Positions 3,274 through 15,313 of a stretch of 16,543 bases of DNA are shown piece by piece. Below the pieces are notes generated by a model. It saw nothing but the letters and a program-made list of their open reading frames with translations, made no database searches and was not told where the DNA came from. The translations under genes and the position numbers were made by a program. Source of the DNA: a bacterium (GTDB lineage: Bacteria; T1Sed10-126). The stretch spans positions 1 to 16,543 of the forward strand of contig PWOD01000105.1 of the NCBI GenBank assembly GCA_003557545.1. The letters are read 5' to 3'. Each line of letters starts with the position of its first letter. Within the stretch, counting starts at the first letter, position 1.

Positions 3274-4530
3274 GTGAATAAAGCGCCCCGTTCGAGTCGT
3301 TTGCAGATTGGAGTTTTTGGCCGGACAAATGTGGGTAAATCGAGTTTTTTGAATATGCTAACCGGGCAGTCGGTTTCGATCACTTCAGAACATCCAGGGA
3401 CGACAACAGATGTAGTGGAGAAGCAGATGGAGTTACTGCCCCTGGGGCCTGTGTTGTTTTTTGATACGGGGGGGTTGGATGATAGTTCAATTCTTTCAGA
3501 ACAGCGGATATCCCGTACCTGGCATGTGGTTGAGGGGATCGATCTGGGTATCATTGTTACTGAACCGGGTGTCTGGGGAGATTTTGAAAAACAATTATTA
3601 GAGGATTTTGAAGAGCGCGGCCTGCCGGTTCTGCTGGTGATCAATAAAATCGATCAGCACCCGGTAACCGATAGGTTTAAACGGCAGCTTGAAGGGTTGG
3701 ATAAACCGGTGGTGCAGCTGGCAGCGGTTGATTCTGAGCAGCGTGATAAATATATTCGGCTGGTTAAGCTGGAGTTGCTGGAGCTCTGTCCGGCCGATTT
3801 TTTACAGCCCCCAACCCTTGTTGGTGATCTGCTGGATGCGGAAGATCTGGTCGTGCTGGTTGTTCCACTTGATTTAGAGGCCCCGAAAGATCGAATAATT
3901 CTTCCCCAGGTACAGACCATTCGAAATGCACTGGATAGTTTTGCTGCTGTTGCAATAGTCAGGGAAACAGGATACAGGTCGCTTCTAAACCGACTGAAAA
4001 AAGCTCCCAAACTGGTAATATGTGACTCTCAGGTTGTGGCAGATATTGCCCGGGAAACTGAACCTGATGTTGCTCTAACAACCTTTTCTATTCTGTTTGC
4101 CAGAAGAAAAGGTGATCTTCCTGAACTGGCTGCCGGTGCTGCAGAAATCGAGCGACTGAAACCAGGGGATGCTGTATTGATCGCTGAAGCTTGTTCACAT
4201 CATCCGGTTGAAGAAGATATTGGGCGTGTTAAAATTCCTCGATGGTTGGATAGCTATGTGGGGGGGGCACTTGATTATCAGGTTTATGCAGGGACAGATT
4301 TTCCCAATAAATTAGAGCAGTATAGTCTTATAATACATTGTGGTGGATGTATGACAAATCGTCGTCGGGTGCTTTATCGTATCCAGCGTGCCGGCCAGGC
4401 CTCTGTTCCCATAACTAACTATGGGATCTGTATAGCCGCTGTTCATGGTCTGGCGGAGCGGGTTCTGGCTCCTTTTGATGGAGCAGTTGCGGCTTATAGA
4501 GGTCGCAAGCAGTTAATTTTAGAAAGCTGA
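3274..4530 (+). CDS. hydF: [FeFe]-hydrogenase H-cluster maturation GTPase HydF
   Basis: HydF is the scaffold/carrier that receives the diiron precursor and delivers the 2Fe subcluster to apo-HydA. The 418-residue protein has the three expected parts. The N-terminal GTPase has P-loop GRTNVGKS (16-23), PGTTTD switch (41-46), DTGG (64-67) and NKID (124-127). A dimerisation region follows. The C-terminal [4Fe-4S] domain has Cys307-x-His309 and HCGGC (His355, Cys356, Cys359), matching the family CxH...HCxxC pattern with 45 residues between the two histidines. All three cluster cysteines are present, so the protein should be functional. The start is GTG 3274 with AAGGAGAAGG at 3257-3266. It lies 23 bases after the anchored unknown protein and 13 bases before hydG. 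Confidence 0.96.
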   Translation: MNKAPRSSRLQIGVFGRTNVGKSSFLNMLTGQSVSITSEHPGTTTDVVEKQMELLPLGPVLFFDTGGLDDSSILSEQRISRTWHVVEGIDLGIIVTEPGVWGDFEKQLLEDFEERGLPVLLVINKIDQHPVTDRFKRQLEGLDKPVVQLAAVDSEQRDKYIRLVKLELLELCPADFLQPPTLVGDLLDAEDLVVLVVPLDLEAPKDRIILPQVQTIRNALDSFAAVAIVRETGYRSLLNRLKKAPKLVICDSQVVADIARETEPDVALTTFSILFARRKGDLPELAAGAAEIERLKPGDAVLIAEACSHHPVEEDIGRVKIPRWLDSYVGGALDYQVYAGTDFPNKLEQYSLIIHCGGCMTNRRRVLYRIQRAGQASVPITNYGICIAAVHGLAERVLAPFDGAVAAYRGRKQLILES

Positions 4531-4543
4531 AAGGAAGATATTG

Positions 4544-6037
4544 GTGAGTCGAGATATTAGCAGGAAGGATTGGATTGAACAGCGGATAAAACCGGACGAG
4601 TATCGTAAATATCTGGATCAAGGTCAAAGTTTTATAGATGATAAATTTTTACAACGTATAGTGGCCGATGACAGTCAACCGGATCCTCTGCAGGTCAGGG
4701 ATATTTTACAAAAATCCCTGGAGATTGAAAGTTTAACTGAAGAGGAAACAGCAGTTTTAACCAGAGTTCAGGATCCAGATTTGCTGGCCACCATGGAAGC
4801 AACGGCTCTTAAGGTTAAGAAAAAGGTCTATGACAATAGAATAGTCACATTTGCGCCGCTATATTTAAATAATATCTGTGTTAACAACTGTCTTTATTGC
4901 GGATTTCGAACGGCCAATCAGCAGGTCGACAGAAAGATTTTAAGTTCCCGACAGATCAGGGATGAAACTCGTGTCCTGGCCGGTGAAATTGGTCATAAGC
5001 GATTGATTGTTGTCTATGGTGAAGCGCCTGAAACTGATATAGATTATATGGAAGAGTCGATTGAAACTATCTATTCAGTTAAGGTTCCCGTAAGGAACGG
5101 TGAGGGCAGAATCAGGCGGGTAAACCTTAATGCTCCACCCCTGCAAAAACGGGAGCTGGAACGGTTAAAAACAGTAGGGATAGGAACATATCAGGTTTTT
5201 CAGGAAACTTATCATGCTGAAACTTATCATCGGGTCCATCCCGGCGGCACTCTGAAAAATGATTATTTATGGCGGTTATACAGCATGCACCGGGCGTATG
5301 AGGCCGGTGTTGATGATTTTGGTCTTGGCGTACTGTTTGGACTTTATGACTGGAGATATGAGTTGCTGGGGCTTGTAAGTCATGCTCGTGAGCTGGAAGA
5401 AAAGTTTGGCGTGGGTCCCCATACAATTTCTTTCCCCCGGTTAGAACCGGCCCTGGGGGCTAAAATTGTTGAAAATTCAAAATATCGTCTGGCGGATTCC
5501 GAGTTCAAACGGCTGATTACAGTTTTACGGCTGGCAGTTCCTTATACAGGACTGATAATTACTGCCCGTGAATCGGCCGCTCTGCGGGATCAGGTGATCG
5601 AGCTGGGCTGTACCCAGGCGGATGCTTCAACAAAACTTGGTATTGGTGGATATAGTTATGATGAAGCAGCCCAGAGTAAAGCAAAACAGCAGTTCATCAT
5701 CGGTGATACTCGTTCCCTTGACAGTCTGGTTAGATCGCTGATTAAGCGGGGATATATTGTTTCTTTCTGTACGGCCGGATATCGTTGCGGTCGGACCGGA
5801 GAATCGATCATGAAGCTGTTAAAGACCGGTAAAGAGGGGGAATACTGTAAACTCAACGCAGTCTTAACCTTCAGAGAATGGTTGGATGATTTTGCTTCTG
5901 AAGAGACCCGGGTTCTCGGGGAAAGATTAATTCAGAAGGAAATCTCTCGCATCAAGCAGCAATTACCGGAGATCTATAGCAGATTTCAGGAGTATTACAG
6001 TAAAACGGTTGATGGTAAAAGAGACCTTTTTCTTTGA
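4544..6037 (+). CDS. hydG: [FeFe]-hydrogenase maturase HydG (radical SAM tyrosine lyase), variant C-terminal cluster motif
   Basis: HydG splits tyrosine to p-cresol and dehydroglycine and converts the latter into the CO and CN ligands of the H-cluster. The 497-residue protein has radical-SAM motif CVNNCLYC (Cys112, 116, 119) and family hallmarks RRVNLN, GIGTYQVFQETYH, MHRAYEAGVDD and GPHTISFPRLEPA. The C-terminal auxiliary-cluster region is odd. The family motif, as I recall it, is FCTACYRxGRTG with CX2CX22C spacing. Here it reads FCTAGYRCGRTG: Cys409 and distal Cys435 are kept, but the middle position is Gly412 and a new Cys415 lies three residues on (CX5CX19C). The GTG at 4544 is preferred over TTG 4541 because it lies six bases after AAGGAAG. 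It is 13 bases downstream of hydF. ThiH was considered, but the GRTG region and context favour HydG. Confidence 0.93.
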   Translation: MSRDISRKDWIEQRIKPDEYRKYLDQGQSFIDDKFLQRIVADDSQPDPLQVRDILQKSLEIESLTEEETAVLTRVQDPDLLATMEATALKVKKKVYDNRIVTFAPLYLNNICVNNCLYCGFRTANQQVDRKILSSRQIRDETRVLAGEIGHKRLIVVYGEAPETDIDYMEESIETIYSVKVPVRNGEGRIRRVNLNAPPLQKRELERLKTVGIGTYQVFQETYHAETYHRVHPGGTLKNDYLWRLYSMHRAYEAGVDDFGLGVLFGLYDWRYELLGLVSHARELEEKFGVGPHTISFPRLEPALGAKIVENSKYRLADSEFKRLITVLRLAVPYTGLIITARESAALRDQVIELGCTQADASTKLGIGGYSYDEAAQSKAKQQFIIGDTRSLDSLVRSLIKRGYIVSFCTAGYRCGRTGESIMKLLKTGKEGEYCKLNAVLTFREWLDDFASEETRVLGERLIQKEISRIKQQLPEIYSRFQEYYSKTVDGKRDLFL

Positions 6038-6158: not shown

Positions 6159-6202
6159 AAGATTAATTGCGTAACCGGCAAAAACTTAAGGTGGAGTTAA
6201 AA

Positions 6203-8059
6203 TTGGCACAACTGTTGAATGGCGAGTCGATTCAATCGATTGATGGTAAAGCTCGGATTTTTGTCTGTATGGGTGGGGGCTGTGTATCATCCGGTGCAGA
6301 GGAGATTCTAAAACTGCTTACCCAGAAGATTCGGCGGCTTGAAACAGCGGTTGAGCTGGAAATTCTGGGGGAACAGGTTAATTTTGACAGTGATTCAGCC
6401 CATCCTTCCGGTTGTGATGGTTTTTGTGACCAGGGACCGTTGATACGGATTGATCCTCCCGGATTAATTTATACCCGGGTAACTCCTGAAGATGTTGATC
6501 AGATCGTAGAGATGACAGTGAAGCAGGGTCAGGTAATTGAGGAGCTCTGTTACCATGATCCTGAGGGAAAAGTTTATGAGTTGGACGAAGAGCTACCATT
6601 TTATTGTAATCAAAAAAAACTGGCGCTGGCCAGCTGTGGCCGGATAAATCCTGAAAGTTTTTCTGACTATCGCCGCCTCGGAGGATATCAGGCACTTGAA
6701 AAAGTTTTGACTGAAATGTCACCGGAGGATGTCTGGAGGGAGATACGGGTTTCTGGACTGCGAGGACGTGGTGGTGCGGGTTTCCCGACCGGACTTAAGT
6801 GGAAACATTGTTATGAACAGCAGGCCGACCAAAAATATATTATCGCCAACTGTGATGAAGGTGACCCCGGGGCCTTTATGGATAGAAATCTTATGGAGGG
6901 GGATCCCTATAGAATTATTGAAGGAATGATAATTGGGGCCTATGCTACCGGTGCCAGTCAGGGTTATGTTTACATCAGAATTGAATATCCTTTAGCAATC
7001 AAAAGAGTGAAAAAGACAATTGCTAAACTGCGGGAGAAGGGCTATCTGGGGAAAAATATTCTGGATTCCGGATTTGCTTTTGATCTAAGTATTCGTCGTG
7101 GTGCGGGGGCCTTTGTTTGTGGTGAAGAAACGGCATTGATACATTCGGTTGAGGGTCGCCGGGGTATGCCTCGGCCCCGCCCGCCCTATCCTACTGTGTC
7201 CGGTCTCTGGGGTAAGCCAACTGTGATCAATAATGTTGAAACTTTTGCTAATATTCCGACAATTATTAGCCGGGGAGCCGACTGGTTTGCCTCGATCGGG
7301 CCCAAAACCAGTCCGGGGACCAAGGTTTTTGCCCTGGCCGGCGACGTGGTAAATACCGGTCTGGTTGAGATACCTATGGGTATAACCTTGAAAGAGGTAG
7401 TGGAAGAGATCGGCGGGGGTGTGGCGGGAGGCAAAAAATTGAAGGCGGTTCAGACAGGCGGACCGGCTGGTGGTTGTATTCCGGCTGAGGAGCTTGATAT
7501 AAAGATAGATTTTGACAGCCTTGCGGTTAAAGGGAGTATTATGGGAAGCGGGGGAATGATAGTACTGGATGAGGATACATGTATGGTCGATCTGGCAAAA
7601 TATTTTATTCAGTTTTCTCGGGATGAGTCCTGTGGTAAATGTACCCCCTGTCGGGAGGGAAATACCAGGCTGTTAGAAATTCTTGAAAGAATCACCCGGG
7701 GTGCCGGTAAGGAAAATGATATTTATCTGCTGCGCCGGCTGGCTGAAGTTCAACAGCAAACCTCTCTTTGTGGTCTCGGTAAATCGGCCCCTAACCCGGT
7801 GTTGAGTACCCTCGATTATTTTGAAGATGAATATAAAAAACATATTTTTGATAGAGAATGTCCAGCCGGAGCCTGTCGTTATCTGGTCACCTATGAGATA
7901 GATGAAGAGGCCTGTATAGGTTGTGGTGCCTGTAAACGGGTCTGCCCGGTTGATTGTATTAGTGGTGCTTCCCGTAAGCCTCATCTTATTGATCAGGAGA
8001 CCTGTATTAAATGTGGTCAATGTTATGAAGTCTGTAATTTTGCGGCGGTTCGGAGATAG
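6203..8059 (+). CDS. hydB: Electron-bifurcating [FeFe]-hydrogenase subunit HydB (NuoF-like)
   Basis: Flavin subunit of the trimeric hydrogenase that exchanges electrons with NAD(P)H and is thought to be the bifurcation site. With the TTG 6203 start the protein has 618 residues, like known HydB proteins. In order: an N-terminal thioredoxin-like [2Fe-2S] domain (CX4C at 22/27, CX3C at 71/75); the NuoF FMN/NAD core with GRGGAGFPTGLKW (188-200), GDPGAFMDR and GAFVCGEETALI; an SLBB region; the [4Fe-4S] motif CGKCTPC with Cys523; and two C-terminal ferredoxin clusters (CIGCGACKRVC, CIKCGQCYEVC). TTG 6203 is six bases after AAGGTGGAG. TTG 6167 and GTG 6191 are in-frame alternatives with poorer sites, so the N-terminus is uncertain by up to 12 residues. 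HydA follows two bases after the stop. Confidence 0.95.
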   Translation: MAQLLNGESIQSIDGKARIFVCMGGGCVSSGAEEILKLLTQKIRRLETAVELEILGEQVNFDSDSAHPSGCDGFCDQGPLIRIDPPGLIYTRVTPEDVDQIVEMTVKQGQVIEELCYHDPEGKVYELDEELPFYCNQKKLALASCGRINPESFSDYRRLGGYQALEKVLTEMSPEDVWREIRVSGLRGRGGAGFPTGLKWKHCYEQQADQKYIIANCDEGDPGAFMDRNLMEGDPYRIIEGMIIGAYATGASQGYVYIRIEYPLAIKRVKKTIAKLREKGYLGKNILDSGFAFDLSIRRGAGAFVCGEETALIHSVEGRRGMPRPRPPYPTVSGLWGKPTVINNVETFANIPTIISRGADWFASIGPKTSPGTKVFALAGDVVNTGLVEIPMGITLKEVVEEIGGGVAGGKKLKAVQTGGPAGGCIPAEELDIKIDFDSLAVKGSIMGSGGMIVLDEDTCMVDLAKYFIQFSRDESCGKCTPCREGNTRLLEILERITRGAGKENDIYLLRRLAEVQQQTSLCGLGKSAPNPVLSTLDYFEDEYKKHIFDRECPAGACRYLVTYEIDEEACIGCGACKRVCPVDCISGASRKPHLIDQETCIKCGQCYEVCNFAAVRR

Positions 8060-8061
8060 AT

Positions 8062-9825
8062 ATGATTAAACAGGATCGGATAAGTCTGACAATTGATGGA
8101 TTTAAAGTGGATGTGGCTCCGGGTACAACTGTAATGCAAGCAGCTGACCGGGTGGGAGTACATATACCGCGCCTCTGTTACCATCCAAAACTTAGCATCC
8201 TTGGCGCCTGTCGGATCTGTATAGTTGAGTTAAAGAAGGAGGGCCGGATGGTTGCCTCCTGTTCATACCCGGTGGAGGAGGGGATGGTTGTTGTTACCTC
8301 TTCACCAAAGCTTCGCCGTTATCGGCGTGATATAGTGGAGCTGATCCTGGATAATCATCCTAAAGATTGCCAGACCTGTGTGAGGGATGGCAACTGTGAG
8401 TTGCAGAACGCTGCCTACAGTCTGGGAGTCCGGGAACGGCTGTTTGAAGGGGAGAGGAAGAGTTTCGCCCGGGATGAATCCTCCCCGTCAATTCAGCGTG
8501 ATCCGGAAAAATGTATTCTTTGTGGCCGTTGTGTGAGGGTCTGTGATGAGGTCCAGGGGGTAACTAATCTCTGGCAGCAGTTTCGGGGGTTTGAAAGTGT
8601 CGCGGCTCCGGCACATAATAATGAAATTAAACATTCGGTCTGTATTCATTGTGGCCAGTGTGTGAATGTCTGTCCGACTGCTTCAATTGTTGAAAAAAAT
8701 ACAACTGACGAGTTATTTGAGGCGCTGGCCGATCCGGAAATGACGGTGGTTGTTCAGACAGCCCCTTCAATTCGAGCTGCGCTCGGTGAGGGGTTTGGTT
8801 ATTCCCCGGGGACACCGGTGACGGGAAAGATGGTAACAGCTTTGAACCTCATGGGATTCGATGCGGTTTTTGATACTAATCTTGGTGCCGATCTGACAAT
8901 TATTGAGGAGTCTGAAGAGTTTTTAAACCGGCTTGAGTCAGGTGACGATCTTCCTTTAATTACCTCCTGCTCGCCGGGCTGGATAAGTTTTATGGAGACA
9001 TTTTATCCCCATTTGATTCCCTATGCATCAACCTGTAAATCTCCTATGAGTATGTTGTCCAGTCTGATTAAAACCTATTATGCGGAGACCCGGGAAATCG
9101 ATCCGGAGAAGATCTATTCTGTGGCAGTAATGCCCTGTACCGCCAAAAAATTTGAAGCTGCCCGGGATGAACATAAAACCGACTGGGGGGCCCCTTATAC
9201 CGATAATGTTATAACGACCAGAGAATTAATCTGGATGTGTAAATGTATGGGGATCAATTTTCGCCGTTTGCCGGATAGTCAGTTTGATAGTCCGCTGGGA
9301 GTTTCAACCGGGGGAGGAGATATATTCGGAACCACCGGTGGTGTGACCGAAGCTGCCCTGCGAACCGCTTATGAAAAAATAACTGGAGAGACCCTGGATG
9401 AGCTTGATTTTATGGCAGTTCGTGGTGTTGAGGGTTTGCGTGAGGCAACTATCGAGCTGGCCGGACGGGAGATTAATATTGGAGTGGCTAATGGGCTGCA
9501 AAATGCCAAAGAGCTGTTTGATCGGCTGTCGGCCGGCGAAAAACAGTACCATCTGCTGGAGATAATGGCATGCCCCGGAGGCTGTGTCGGTGGTGGTGGA
9601 CAGCCCTATCCTCCCGAGGATACATTCTCCCTTGATCCTGAACTTGTGAAAAGTAGAGCCAAGGCACTCTATTCAATCGATAGCAATAAAAAATTACGTA
9701 AATCTCATGAAAATCCGGCTATTCAGGAGCTCTATACCTATTACCTGGGTGAACCGAATGGTGAGCGTTCACATCAACTTTTACATACATGCTATAAACC
9801 GAATAAAAGGCGGGGAATCAGATGA
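8062..9825 (+). CDS. hydA: [FeFe]-hydrogenase catalytic subunit HydA (HndD/group A3-like)
   Basis: Catalytic subunit that makes or oxidises H2 at the H-cluster. Its 587 residues carry, in order, a plant-type [2Fe-2S] domain (Cys39, 50, 53, 67), a His-ligated [4Fe-4S] site (HPKDCQTC...C, 99-112), two ferredoxin clusters (CILCGRC at 151, CIHCGQC at 194) and the H-cluster domain. The signature loops are L1 TSCSPGW (301-307), L2 MPCTAKKFE (357-365) and L3 MACPGGCVGGGGQP (502-515). L1 has Ser304 where the textbook motif (TSCCPxW) has a second cysteine. The C-terminal SHQLLHTCY resembles the tail of trimeric-type HydA proteins. ATG 8062 is preceded by GGAGAT inside the end of hydB. The gene overlaps hydC by four bases (ATGA), so the three subunits are translationally coupled. 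Confidence 0.96.
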   Translation: MIKQDRISLTIDGFKVDVAPGTTVMQAADRVGVHIPRLCYHPKLSILGACRICIVELKKEGRMVASCSYPVEEGMVVVTSSPKLRRYRRDIVELILDNHPKDCQTCVRDGNCELQNAAYSLGVRERLFEGERKSFARDESSPSIQRDPEKCILCGRCVRVCDEVQGVTNLWQQFRGFESVAAPAHNNEIKHSVCIHCGQCVNVCPTASIVEKNTTDELFEALADPEMTVVVQTAPSIRAALGEGFGYSPGTPVTGKMVTALNLMGFDAVFDTNLGADLTIIEESEEFLNRLESGDDLPLITSCSPGWISFMETFYPHLIPYASTCKSPMSMLSSLIKTYYAETREIDPEKIYSVAVMPCTAKKFEAARDEHKTDWGAPYTDNVITTRELIWMCKCMGINFRRLPDSQFDSPLGVSTGGGDIFGTTGGVTEAALRTAYEKITGETLDELDFMAVRGVEGLREATIELAGREINIGVANGLQNAKELFDRLSAGEKQYHLLEIMACPGGCVGGGGQPYPPEDTFSLDPELVKSRAKALYSIDSNKKLRKSHENPAIQELYTYYLGEPNGERSHQLLHTCYKPNKRRGIR

Positions 9826-10313
9826 ACCGTGACTACTCTTTGTCCTCTGAAATCGTTCAGTCTTTACAGGATTTTTCAGAGAAAAACCGCCCGGAAAGTT
9901 ATTTGATTCCGGCCCTTCAAATGGTTCAGGAAAGCTATGGTTTTCTTTCCCGGGAACATCTCGATGAAGTGGCGCTGTTATTACGGGTTCCCTATGCAAA
10001 GGTTACCGGAGTTGCCTCGTTTTATCATTTTTTTAACTTTAAACCCTCCGGTGAAAATGAAATTGTGATCTGTACCGGAACTGCCTGTCACGTTCGGGGT
10101 GCCGGTGCTGTACTGGATAGATTTTTAGAAGAACTTCAAGTCAAGCTGGAGCAACCCACTGAAGATGGTCGGTTTTCGGTTACCGATGCTCGCTGTGTGG
10201 GAGCCTGTGCCCAGGCACCGGTGGTCATCATCGGTGAAAAGGTTTATTCTAAGGTTACTCCAGATGATGTTCCTGAAATTCTTTCTGAATATGGATTTGA
10301 AGCGGATAGCTGA
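9822..10313 (+). CDS. hydC: Electron-bifurcating [FeFe]-hydrogenase subunit HydC (NuoE-like)
   Basis: Small thioredoxin-like [2Fe-2S] subunit that partners HydB in the NADH-linked half of the complex. The 163 residues are the usual NuoE size. The four cluster cysteines follow CX4C (CTGTAC, Cys84/89) and CX3C (CVGAC, Cys125/129), and the NuoE hallmark VASFYHFFNFKP lies at 64-75. The start ATG overlaps the hydA stop as ATGA. It is the last gene of the unit: the terminator hairpin begins inside its final codons. Having the NuoE-like gene last differs from the hydC-hydB-hydA order of Thermotoga and the hndABCD order of Desulfovibrio. Confidence 0.95.
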   Translation: MNRDYSLSSEIVQSLQDFSEKNRPESYLIPALQMVQESYGFLSREHLDEVALLLRVPYAKVTGVASFYHFFNFKPSGENEIVICTGTACHVRGAGAVLDRFLEELQVKLEQPTEDGRFSVTDARCVGACAQAPVVIIGEKVYSKVTPDDVPEILSEYGFEADS

Positions 10314-10579: not shown

Positions 10580-11635
10580 ATTACAGACAATAATCAGCAG
10601 CCCCAAAAACCACGAACTTTTTCTGCTTCACAGATTAATAAGTTTTATAGCTGTCCGCGAATGTGGGCATATGAGTATCTTGAAGGTTTGAAACCTCTTC
10701 CCAGTTATCCTCTTCAAAAGGGGACTTTTGTCCATGCAGTAGTGGAAAATTTTAATCGGGATCCCGGGCCGTTTCCCGATTCTTCACAGAAAAAACAGCA
10801 GATTGAGAGAGTGATCGAAAGATTGAACAGGATCGCGCGAAGGCTCTGGGAAGAGGGTCTGCCGGGTGAGTTTGAGGGGGAGATGCGAAAAAAATCACAG
10901 GAGCTGAAGGATCAGTTCAAAAATTATGCCGAAAGTTTTTTACAGCGTTTTAATCAGCTGAAAAGACGCACTGAATTATCTCCTGAAAAAGCCTGGCAAC
11001 GGGCGGCACCCGATGCAAATGAGCTGTCTGTTGCTGTAACCGATGAAAATGGGGAATGGTTGTTTTGTGGCGGAATTGATGCGGTTTATGAGAAACATCC
11101 GTTGTGGTTCGATCGGACCGCAATCGTTGATTATAAGACGGGAAAAAGTCCATTTAATTCGGCCACTCCTTTAAGCGTTGATTACGGGAGGCAGCTTGAT
11201 ATTTACGGCTGGTTGTATTACCAGGCTTTCGGCCAGGTTCCCGAAGTGGCAGGGATTCATTTTCTTGCTGCACCGACGAACAGTTCTACGGCTTTTGTTT
11301 TTAAGGAGATTGATCCTGGAACGGTGGAATCGGTTCATTTGATGCTGGAGAGGGTAAGGAGTTTAACCGTTTCAGAAAACTACCAGGATTATCCGCCTAA
11401 TCCTCAGTATAAATGGTGCTGTTTTAAAAAGAAAAATGGTCAAACTATTCGTTGTGATCACTGGAAATATTGTCAGGGCGGTGAAGCCCTCCCGGAACCG
11501 GTTAAACAGGATAATGGATTTGATGATAGAAAGTTGATTTTTGTTGATCAACGTGATCCGCTGGCTGAAAATCTCCCCTTAAGTGAACATGCCAGCGCAG
11601 TTTTTGATGACAGTCCGGATCCTGAAAAATTCTGA
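10580..11635 (+). CDS. Cas4/RecB-family PD-(D/E)XK nuclease, probable ATT start
   Basis: Stand-alone RecB-like nuclease, probably acting in DNA repair or processing. The family N-terminal motif FSASQINKFYSCPRMW begins upstream of the first ATG (10661), so that ATG is internal. Between the in-frame TAG at 10547 and 10661 there is no ATG, GTG or TTG. ATT at 10580 lies six bases after AGGGTGGG (10566-10573) and gives 351 residues. In that numbering: a GTFVHAVVEN helix, GGID (Asp167), catalytic DYKTG (Asp184, Lys186) and QLDIYGW (Gln205). Cys25 and the C-terminal cysteines 281, 292 and 298 could bind a [4Fe-4S] cluster, as in Cas4 and AddB; the last pair has CX5C spacing. No cas gene or CRISPR array is nearby. 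ATT initiation is rare, so a sequencing error or frameshift should also be considered. Confidence 0.8.
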   Translation: MTDNNQQPQKPRTFSASQINKFYSCPRMWAYEYLEGLKPLPSYPLQKGTFVHAVVENFNRDPGPFPDSSQKKQQIERVIERLNRIARRLWEEGLPGEFEGEMRKKSQELKDQFKNYAESFLQRFNQLKRRTELSPEKAWQRAAPDANELSVAVTDENGEWLFCGGIDAVYEKHPLWFDRTAIVDYKTGKSPFNSATPLSVDYGRQLDIYGWLYYQAFGQVPEVAGIHFLAAPTNSSTAFVFKEIDPGTVESVHLMLERVRSLTVSENYQDYPPNPQYKWCCFKKKNGQTIRCDHWKYCQGGEALPEPVKQDNGFDDRKLIFVDQRDPLAENLPLSEHASAVFDDSPDPEKF

Positions 11636-13214: not shown

Positions 13215-13823
13215 ATGTTTGCGCTCTTGCTTGAAGGTGGTTTGTTGATGATTCCGATTGGGATCTGTTCGGTGCTGGCGGTTGGTTTTACCATAGAAAG
13301 GTTTATTTATTTATATTCAAATCACACCTCGGCGCGGGAGTTCTGGGAAAGAGTGGAGGGCCCTCTGAAAAAAGGTCGTGTGGATGTAGCTCTTGCTCGA
13401 ACTCGGGAGTTCAAAGGTGTTCTGGCTGAGTTGGTTGAAAAAGCCCTGCAGGTCGAACCGTTAACAGCAGAGGCTGCTGAAGAGGAGATGAAGATTTTTG
13501 GCAATGAAATATTATTGCGGCTCAAACAGTTTTTACCTTCGTTAGATTTTATTGCCCAGGTTTCACCGCTGTTAGGGTTGCTGGGAACTGTGGCTGGAAT
13601 GATCGAGACCTTCAGGATAATTGCCGAAATCGGTGTTGGTGATCCCAATCTCCTTGCCGGCGGTATTTATACAGCTCTGGTGACTACGGCGGCAGGTTTA
13701 ACTGTAGGTATTGTTGCATTGTTTTTCCATTATTTACTGAAAAGTAAGGTTGACAGTATAATCAATGATCTGGAAGCAGCGGTCAATAAAACTACTGTGC
13801 TGATAGAGGAAAACGATGTTTGA
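13215..13823 (+). CDS. exbB: ExbB/TolQ/MotA-family proton channel protein
   Basis: Inner-membrane subunit of the ion-driven ExbB-ExbD motor that energises TonB or a Tol system. It has 202 residues and three membrane segments: about 8-34 (GGLLMIPIGICSVLAVGFTIERF), 112-135 and 147-174. A cytoplasmic domain lies between the first two. The conserved core PLLGLLGTVAGMIETF (118-133) and GGIYTALVTTAAGLTVGIVAL (149-169) match the MotA/TolQ/ExbB domain. ATG 13215 follows CGGAGGTG (13202-13209). Its end overlaps exbD by eight bases, so the two are translationally coupled. ExbB is preferred over TolQ because a TonB-like protein is in the same operon, but these families cannot be separated reliably by eye. 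Confidence 0.92.
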   Translation: MFALLLEGGLLMIPIGICSVLAVGFTIERFIYLYSNHTSAREFWERVEGPLKKGRVDVALARTREFKGVLAELVEKALQVEPLTAEAAEEEMKIFGNEILLRLKQFLPSLDFIAQVSPLLGLLGTVAGMIETFRIIAEIGVGDPNLLAGGIYTALVTTAAGLTVGIVALFFHYLLKSKVDSIINDLEAAVNKTTVLIEENDV

Positions 13824-14238
13824 AGAAGCCAAACCATTTGGCCGGTTAGAAACAGAACATCAATTTACCTCGCTGCGGATTACACCTTTGATTGATATAG
13901 TGTTTTTGCTGTTGATATTTTTCATGGTTTCGACAACCTTCACTGTTCAGCCGGGTCTTCAGGTTGAACTACCCGGTGCCGGCGGGGAGGTTGAAATGGC
14001 ACCTGAACGTGATGTTATCTCTATTTCCCATGAGGGCCAGATCTATCTTAATGGTGAATCAATCAGGCTGGCCGATCTGATCGGTCAACTGGATGGCGAC
14101 GAAAGAATAGTTGTGGTCCGAGCCGATCGACGGGCTCGCCATGGTTTGATTGTCAGTGTGCTGGATAGTGTCAGAAAAGCTGGTGTAAGCCGGGTAAATC
14201 TTTCAACACGTCCATTAGAGGAAGATGGTAATGAATAG
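13816..14238 (+). CDS. exbD: ExbD/TolR-family biopolymer transport protein
   Basis: Partner of ExbB in the motor, with one membrane helix and a periplasmic domain. The 140 residues start with a short cytoplasmic tail, then [21 protein letters not shown] (about 22-42). Asp27 is the conserved proton-carrying aspartate equivalent to E. coli ExbD Asp25. The periplasmic part has the usual pattern ([45 protein letters not shown]). It overlaps exbB by eight bases upstream and tonB downstream, so the three are one operon. Confidence 0.94.
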
Positions 14239-15313
14239 ACGTCTGTTATCAGGGTTGATTGTCAGCATTGTTTTTCATCTGCTCCTGCTGCTTTTGCCCT
14301 ATGCGGCTCCCCAGGTCAGCCGACCGGAGCCGGACAAGTTAATTGTTGATTTGCGGGCCGGGTTGGAACCGGTTGCTCCGACAACTGAAAGAACTGAACT
14401 GGCAGAACAGCAGGAGGCTGAACCGGTGGATGAACAACCGCTCGATGATCCACCTGCAGAGGAGGAAGCTGAGCCTGAGCCTGAACCGGATTCAGACCCC
14501 GCGCCAGAACCGGAACCATCGCCAGAACCGGAACCATCGCCAGAACCGGAACCGGTGCCAGAACCGGAACCAGAGCCTGAACCGGAACCGGAGCCGGAAC
14601 CGATGCCAGAACCGGAACCGGAGCCGGAATCAGAGCCTGAACCAGAACCGGAGCCTGAACCGGAGCCGGTTGAACAGCTGGCAGATAAAGATCAGGAAGC
14701 TGAAGTCGATCAACAGATCTTACAGCCGGATGCCAGTCGTTTACAAAGAGAACCGGTTTTTCGTCGGGCTGAAGCGCGCACCGGTCAGACAGATTCTGGT
14801 CAGGATCCGATAGAACCCCGGGAGCGTCATACCACGGTTTCTGATTATGAAAGACATAGAATAGAGCAGCCCCAGAGGGAAACTGAGGAATCTGAAAGGG
14901 CTTTTCGTCCGGTACCTGAGTTTCAGCGTGAACGACAGAGGTTTTTACCGGATTTAGATATTCCTCAGTCGGTTGATCGCCGTCCGGAGGTGGAGGTTGG
15001 GGAAAATATGGATCTCCAGGTCCGGGAAGCAATCGATCCGACACTGGGTCGTGCCGACAGGTCACGTCGGTTACTTGAAGGGCCACTTCCTGAAGCGCCA
15101 GGTTGGCTTGAGGAGCGGGGGGAAAATGTTAGATTGGTGGTTGATTATCTGATAAAACCGGATGGTACGGTTAATTCAATCACCTTAATAAATAGTTCGG
15201 GGTATCCGGAGTTGGATTCACTGGTGGTCAACTATCTACAGCGCTGGAGGTATGAGGAGATGGATGAGTCTGAACAGCGAACTGTGGAGATACAGTTTCG
15301 ATTAAAAACTTAG
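14231..15313 (+). CDS. tonB: TonB-family energy transducer with a long acidic Glu-Pro linker
   Basis: Periplasm-spanning protein that carries ExbBD-derived energy to outer-membrane receptors. It has 360 residues, longer than E. coli TonB (239). An N-terminal anchor ([20 protein letters not shown], about 5-24) includes the membrane His of the TonB SxxxH pattern (SIVFH). A highly acidic Glu-Pro tract (about 80-148) and a second charged region rich in Arg and Glu follow. The C-terminal TonB domain (291-360) contains [41 protein letters not shown] 14231 is nine bases after GAGG; ATG 14225 is in frame but too close to it. The linker differs from the Lys-Pro-rich linkers of enterobacterial TonB. 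TolA is an alternative, but the C-terminal domain reads as TonB. Confidence 0.9.
14468..14674 (+). repeat. Glu-Pro coding repeat tract in tonB
   Basis: About 200 bp of degenerate repeats built from GAACCGGAACC-type units, with two adjacent near-identical CCAGAACCGGAACCATCG copies near 14512-14544. It encodes roughly 69 residues of alternating Glu and Pro with occasional Ser, Val, Met or Asp. Such a tract is prone to length change by slippage or recombination. Long open frames on the other strands here (14316-15086 minus, 14343-14813 plus) are by-products of it. Confidence 0.85.

Follow-up and report, generated by a model that had tools for sequence, protein, structure and literature searches.

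HydG makes the CO and cyanide ligands of iron hydrogenases, and the cysteines of one of its clusters normally stand in a fixed spacing. We asked what has become of this site in the hydG gene of the window (the whole stretch of 16,543 nucleotides analysed here), where the middle cysteine is missing and another cysteine stands three residues downstream.

The cysteine motif of the window HydG

In a profile search, the protein scored 443.5 bits with the HydG model TIGR03955 (cut-off 312.15), residues 27-495 aligning with positions 8-468 of the 470 in the profile, and it did not reach the cut-off of the ThiH model TIGR02351 (250.7 bits versus 380). ThiH, the 2-iminoacetate synthase (TIGR02351; PDB 7PD1), shares with HydG the radical SAM tyrosine lyase fold and the first reaction but, unlike HydG, has no auxiliary-cluster domain. 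The window HydG is thus a full-length family match to canonical HydG (TIGR03955), and its closest solved relatives are the enzymes of Thermoanaerobacter italicus (PDB 4WCX) and Carboxydothermus hydrogenoformans (PDB 4RTB). Both of these solved HydG structures are canonical CX2CX22C enzymes. The gene and the residues that matter here are listed below, with the GTG at 4544 taken as residue 1.

4544..6037, forward strand: hydG, radical SAM H-cluster maturase, 497 amino acids; start GTG 4544, TTG 4541 also possible
4877..4900, forward strand: radical-SAM motif C112-X3-C116-X2-C119 (CVNNCLYC), standard; invariant in 45 variants and 78 canonical sequences
5381..5383, forward strand: His280, aligned to a conserved T. 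italicus His; present in 26/26 variants and 69/70 canonical sequences
5612..5614, forward strand: Thr357, clade-specific; Thr in 45/45 variants, Ser in 78/78 canonical sequences
5759..5761, forward strand: Val406, at a Pro position invariant in canonical HydG; Pro in 70/70 canonical sequences versus 0/26 variants
5768..5770, forward strand: Cys409 (TGT), first auxiliary-cluster cysteine, standard position; invariant in 123/123 aligned sequences
5777..5779, forward strand: Gly412 (GGA), vacated middle-cysteine position by alignment; Gly or Asp in the clade
5786..5788, forward strand: Cys415 (TGC), relocated cysteine, proposed replacement ligand; 47/47 variants, 0/78 canonical sequences
5846..5848, forward strand: Cys435 (TGT), third auxiliary-cluster cysteine, standard position; invariant

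The spacing is therefore CX5CX19C (FC409-TA-G412-YR-C415-GRTG...C435) and not CX2CX22C, while the count of three cysteines is unchanged and the radical-SAM CX3CX2C motif is intact. Translation of 4544-6037 gives the residues C409, G412, C415 and C435 as the first-pass annotation had read them, with the 22 residues it had counted between G412 and C435. When aligned with T. italicus HydG (PDB 4wcx), C409, G412 and C435 correspond to C394, C397 and C420, and C415 to Met400. The same annotation had argued that no single sequencing error could produce this pattern, and we agree, as the motif recurs in the sister genome of the window's phylum and in a Desulfobacteraceae metagenome-assembled genome (MAG). 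Sequencing error was ruled out on this ground, and a private mutation or a decaying gene by the open frame and the wide clade described below.

Distribution and descent of the variant spacing

We collected 125 distinct HydG sequences, from a first domain-wide bacterial sample and from later searches that targeted the variant-bearing groups. The CX2CX22C spacing without a cysteine at +3 was found in 78 of them. The remaining 47 have no middle cysteine (Gly in 37, Asp in 10) and all carry the cysteine at +3; no sequence among the 125 had both cysteines, or neither. Loss of the middle cysteine is thus coupled to the +3 cysteine far beyond chance (47/47 versus 0/78). Since the later searches centred on variant-bearing groups, the frequency was estimated from the first sample only, in which 60 of the 80 HydG that show the motif region are CX2CX22C and 20 are CX5CX19C. 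The strict CX2CX22C spacing does not define the HydG family, because about a quarter of the sequences above the cut-off have the other one. The first-pass annotation had allowed that FCTAGYRCG might prove common in HydG and functionally unremarkable; its commonness is borne out, at about a quarter of the HydG sampled across bacteria.

Both genomes of the window's phylum (G000 and its sister G001) carry the motif. This phylum is very sparsely sampled, with these two genomes, of one family, among 97,973 species. A scan of named genomes with the window protein returned one relative, the Desulfobacteraceae MAG, whose HydG is 58% identical and has the variant motif; in the class that contains it, 6 of 16 HydG are variants, in further genomes. 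Counted through group searches, variants occur in at least four phyla (those of G000, G504, G531 and G002). At least 19 families have them (f1, f11, f45, f72, f75, f103, f104, f114, f115, f116, f119, f126, f142, f197, f198, f217, f225, f229 and f251). In family f217, every HydG with a visible motif (L108-L115, L118, L120 and L121) reads CTADYRCG, with Asp at 412 and the +3 cysteine kept. Canonical and variant HydG coexist in two genomes, G177 (L007, L021) and G627 (L052, L095), and in f119 the best HydG is a variant in some genomes and, in others, canonical-like by score alone. This mixed occurrence fits transfer between lineages. Two second or third HydG copies, L098 in G665 and L099 in G528, have one in-frame TGA each and the divergent motifs CYGKGRVG and CYKKGRVG; either these copies are decaying or the TGA would be read as an amino acid.

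The alignment of relatives proposed in the first-pass annotation gave a clear answer, as Gly or Asp together with the +3 cysteine is found throughout one clade. In a maximum-likelihood tree of the first set (26 variants and 70 canonical sequences), calculated without the motif columns, all 26 variants fell on one side of a single branch with an SH-aLRT support of 99. A second tree, rooted with ThiH and comprising 45 variants and 78 canonical sequences, again placed the 45 variants in one group (support 91), nested within the canonical sequences. CX2CX22C is therefore likely ancestral; this polarity is moderately secure, the outgroup branch being very long. Because the tree shows the exchange as a single event, the coupling of positions 412 and 415 rests on persistence and not on repeated origins. 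That persistence is considerable: the variant clade of the first tree spans 8.1 changes per column of branch length, and C409, C415 and C435 are invariant in 45/45 variants, while position 412 became Asp in the whole of family f217.

The clade is also marked outside the cysteines. Three positions distinguish it without exception: Gly or Asp stands in place of Cys at 412, there is a Cys at 415, and Thr replaces Ser at 357. At position 406, the Pro of canonical HydG gives way to Thr, Ser or Val in the first-set variants. The window HydG has all the features of the CX5CX19C subfamily, namely no middle cysteine, a cysteine at +3, Thr357, no Pro406 and a place in the one clade. It thus differs from canonical HydG by Gly/Asp at the middle cysteine, the +3 cysteine, Thr357 for Ser and the lost Pro406, and has in common with it the radical-SAM motif, the first and third auxiliary cysteines, the YR and GRTG elements, N438 and the partner genes. 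The clade retains the following residues of canonical HydG: the radical-SAM cysteines, R342, R348, His280, Y413, R417, G419 and N438. We take the counterpart of His280 to be the published dangler-iron ligand His265 of T. italicus HydG (chain position about 266 in 4wcx). The complete list of clade-invariant cysteines is C112, C116, C119, C409, C415 and C435.

Partner genes and the proposed ligand exchange

In the window, hydF, hydG, hydB, hydA and hydC follow one another, the genes around hydG being:

3274..4530, forward strand: hydF, GTPase maturase with P-loop and C-terminal cluster motif; TIGR03918, 499.1 bits, and motifs
6167..8059, forward strand: hydB, NuoF-like diaphorase subunit of an NAD-linked [FeFe]-hydrogenase; NuoF family, 502.6 bits, under the model's cut-off
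8062..9825, forward strand: hydA, catalytic subunit of a group A [FeFe]-hydrogenase; NF040763, 817 bits, cut-off 765
9822..10313, forward strand: hydC, NuoE/HoxE-like subunit; HoxE and NuoE models, 131-140 bits, under their cut-offs

HydA carries all three H-cluster motifs (TSCSPGW, MPCTAKKFE and MACPGGCVGGGGQP). The order hydF-hydG-hydB is the same in G001, and hydE of the window's genome is on contig C227, so that HydE, HydF and an [FeFe]-hydrogenase are all present. Among the variant genomes tested, HydE was found in 19/19 and HydA in 18/19, and in most variant genomes the variant is the only HydG found. A non-functional variant would be hard to reconcile with the presence of these partners and with the standard HydF and HydA motifs in the window, and the variant HydG is very probably still a working enzyme of a large subfamily. 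The C-terminal CX7CX2C motif of HydE showed no link to the variant, as some variant genomes have it and others lack it.

Further downstream, ExbB/ExbD-like genes, recognized by sequence (13215-14238), adjoin a gene for a TonB-like protein with a long Glu-Pro repeat region (14225-15313), which together indicate an outer membrane. The window also encodes a stand-alone protein of the PD-(D/E)XK nuclease superfamily (10661-11635; Pfam PF12705, 61.9 bits); the match begins at profile position 17, and the frame may start upstream of the ATG.

We propose that the middle cysteine was shifted three residues downstream, turning CX2CX22C into CX5CX19C, and that C409, C415 and C435 would hold a [4Fe-4S] cluster with one iron left free. 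As in canonical HydG, this iron would bear the dangler iron and a cysteine, and the Fe(CO)2(CN) unit would be built there from tyrosine-derived dehydroglycine. A canonical ancestor would have undergone the exchange a single time, and descent, probably together with transfer, would have spread it. Were the segment a helix, residues 412 and 415 would lie one turn apart on the same face, and the exchange would be easy. An AlphaFold model calculated from two sequences had a mean pLDDT of 38, too low to bear on this. A CX5C spacing binds clusters elsewhere, in the CX4CX5C motif of lipoyl synthase. The repositioned cysteine that the first-pass annotation had suggested is supported by conservation: C415 is invariant where the middle cysteine is absent, the clade has no other new conserved cysteine, and the maturation system is present. 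From these sequence patterns we infer that C415 binds a cluster of the usual kind and that the chemistry has stayed broadly the same. Taken as a whole, a working HydG in which C415 replaces the lost ligand, with cluster and chemistry kept in outline, is in our judgement most likely the right explanation.

The alternatives differ in how far they depart from this scheme. By re-orienting the auxiliary cluster, the exchange could change the way in which the dangler iron is bound, perhaps aided by Asp412 in one family, giving a distinct synthon route or rate in about a quarter of HydG. C415 would then still hold the cluster, but the moved ligand, together with Thr357 and, in one family, Asp412, would alter the binding or turnover of the dangler iron and so the chemistry of the CO/CN synthon. 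The S357T change follows the clade boundary as strictly as the cysteine exchange does, Pro406 is lost, and Asp is fixed at 412 in f217, where a carboxylate beside the cluster could be relevant to the dangler iron. In ThiH, S318 and S321 surround the tyrosine phenolate (PMC9046217); Thr357 would lie just ahead of the stretch that matches them, a mapping drawn from the alignment. The loss of Pro406 and the Thr357 substitution could thus mean that the change is wider than the ligand alone. However, His280, the radical-SAM motif, R342, R348, Y413, R417, G419 and N438 are unchanged, and the adjoining HydF and HydA motifs are standard, which requires the usual [2Fe] precursor as the product. We hold such a distinct synthon route to be improbable, and likewise give little weight to altered handling of the dangler iron through the moved ligand. 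The "real variation in CO/CN synthesis chemistry" considered in the first-pass annotation is not evident in these sequences. Nothing unusual marks the partners, His280, the radical-SAM site or the H-cluster motifs, and this suggests unaltered chemistry on a cluster with a differently placed ligand. As an observation apart, Asp360 (5621-5623), aligned to ThiH Ser318, is shared by all variants and by about one fifth of canonical HydG, which departs from the strictly conserved Ser described for this position in HydG (PMC9046217).

The missing middle ligand could also mean that the cluster has been lost or is held by two cysteines, leaving an enzyme that only cleaves tyrosine, while CO would be formed elsewhere or in another way. 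This seems very doubtful to us, since the three site cysteines are invariant across the clade, which is unexpected after cluster loss, and a passage of PMC9431212 citing King et al. 2006 describes the C-terminal cluster as essential for maturation in canonical HydG. Least probable of all, and barely credible, is a third ligand from another side chain, such as Asp360, His249 or Asp412, with C415 in some other role. Y246, H249 and D360 are indeed invariant in the clade, but each also occurs in 11-16 canonical sequences whose middle cysteine is intact; position 412 is Gly and not Asp in most variants, and C415, which is confined to the clade, is its sole new cysteine. The exchange of the cluster ligand for C415 thus stands as our preferred explanation.

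Precedent and significance

The CX5CX19C spacing itself is already in print. The candidate HydG CLAU_RS03260 of C. autoethanogenum has a C-x(5)-C-x(19)-C motif that was proposed to bind the C-terminal cluster (PMC9431212, 2022). Its cysteine spacing is that of the window HydG, a likeness drawn from the published spacing. A passage of the same paper, citing Duffus et al. 2012, describes the cluster-binding sequence of HydG as variable, and Duffus et al. may say more on this motif. CLAU_RS03260 is treated in PMC9431212 as a single gene, in a main text without an alignment, a clade or the coupling. In the literature searched, with most subscription journals outside it, we found no description of the clade, the all-or-none exchange, its frequency or the coupled substitutions, and no biochemical work on a CX5CX19C HydG. 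Overall, we consider the variant real, clade-wide, probably functional as judged from sequence comparison, and partly anticipated in print.

Motif rules can leave genomes seemingly without a HydG (PMC9431212), and if about a quarter of HydG uses a relocated ligand, identification by CX2CX22C misses these enzymes. The genomes G177 and G627 offer natural pairs for a comparison of both HydG types within one cell. The variant clade is a natural experiment on the geometry that the dangler-iron site requires, and its orthologues form a set in which intermediates might be trapped.
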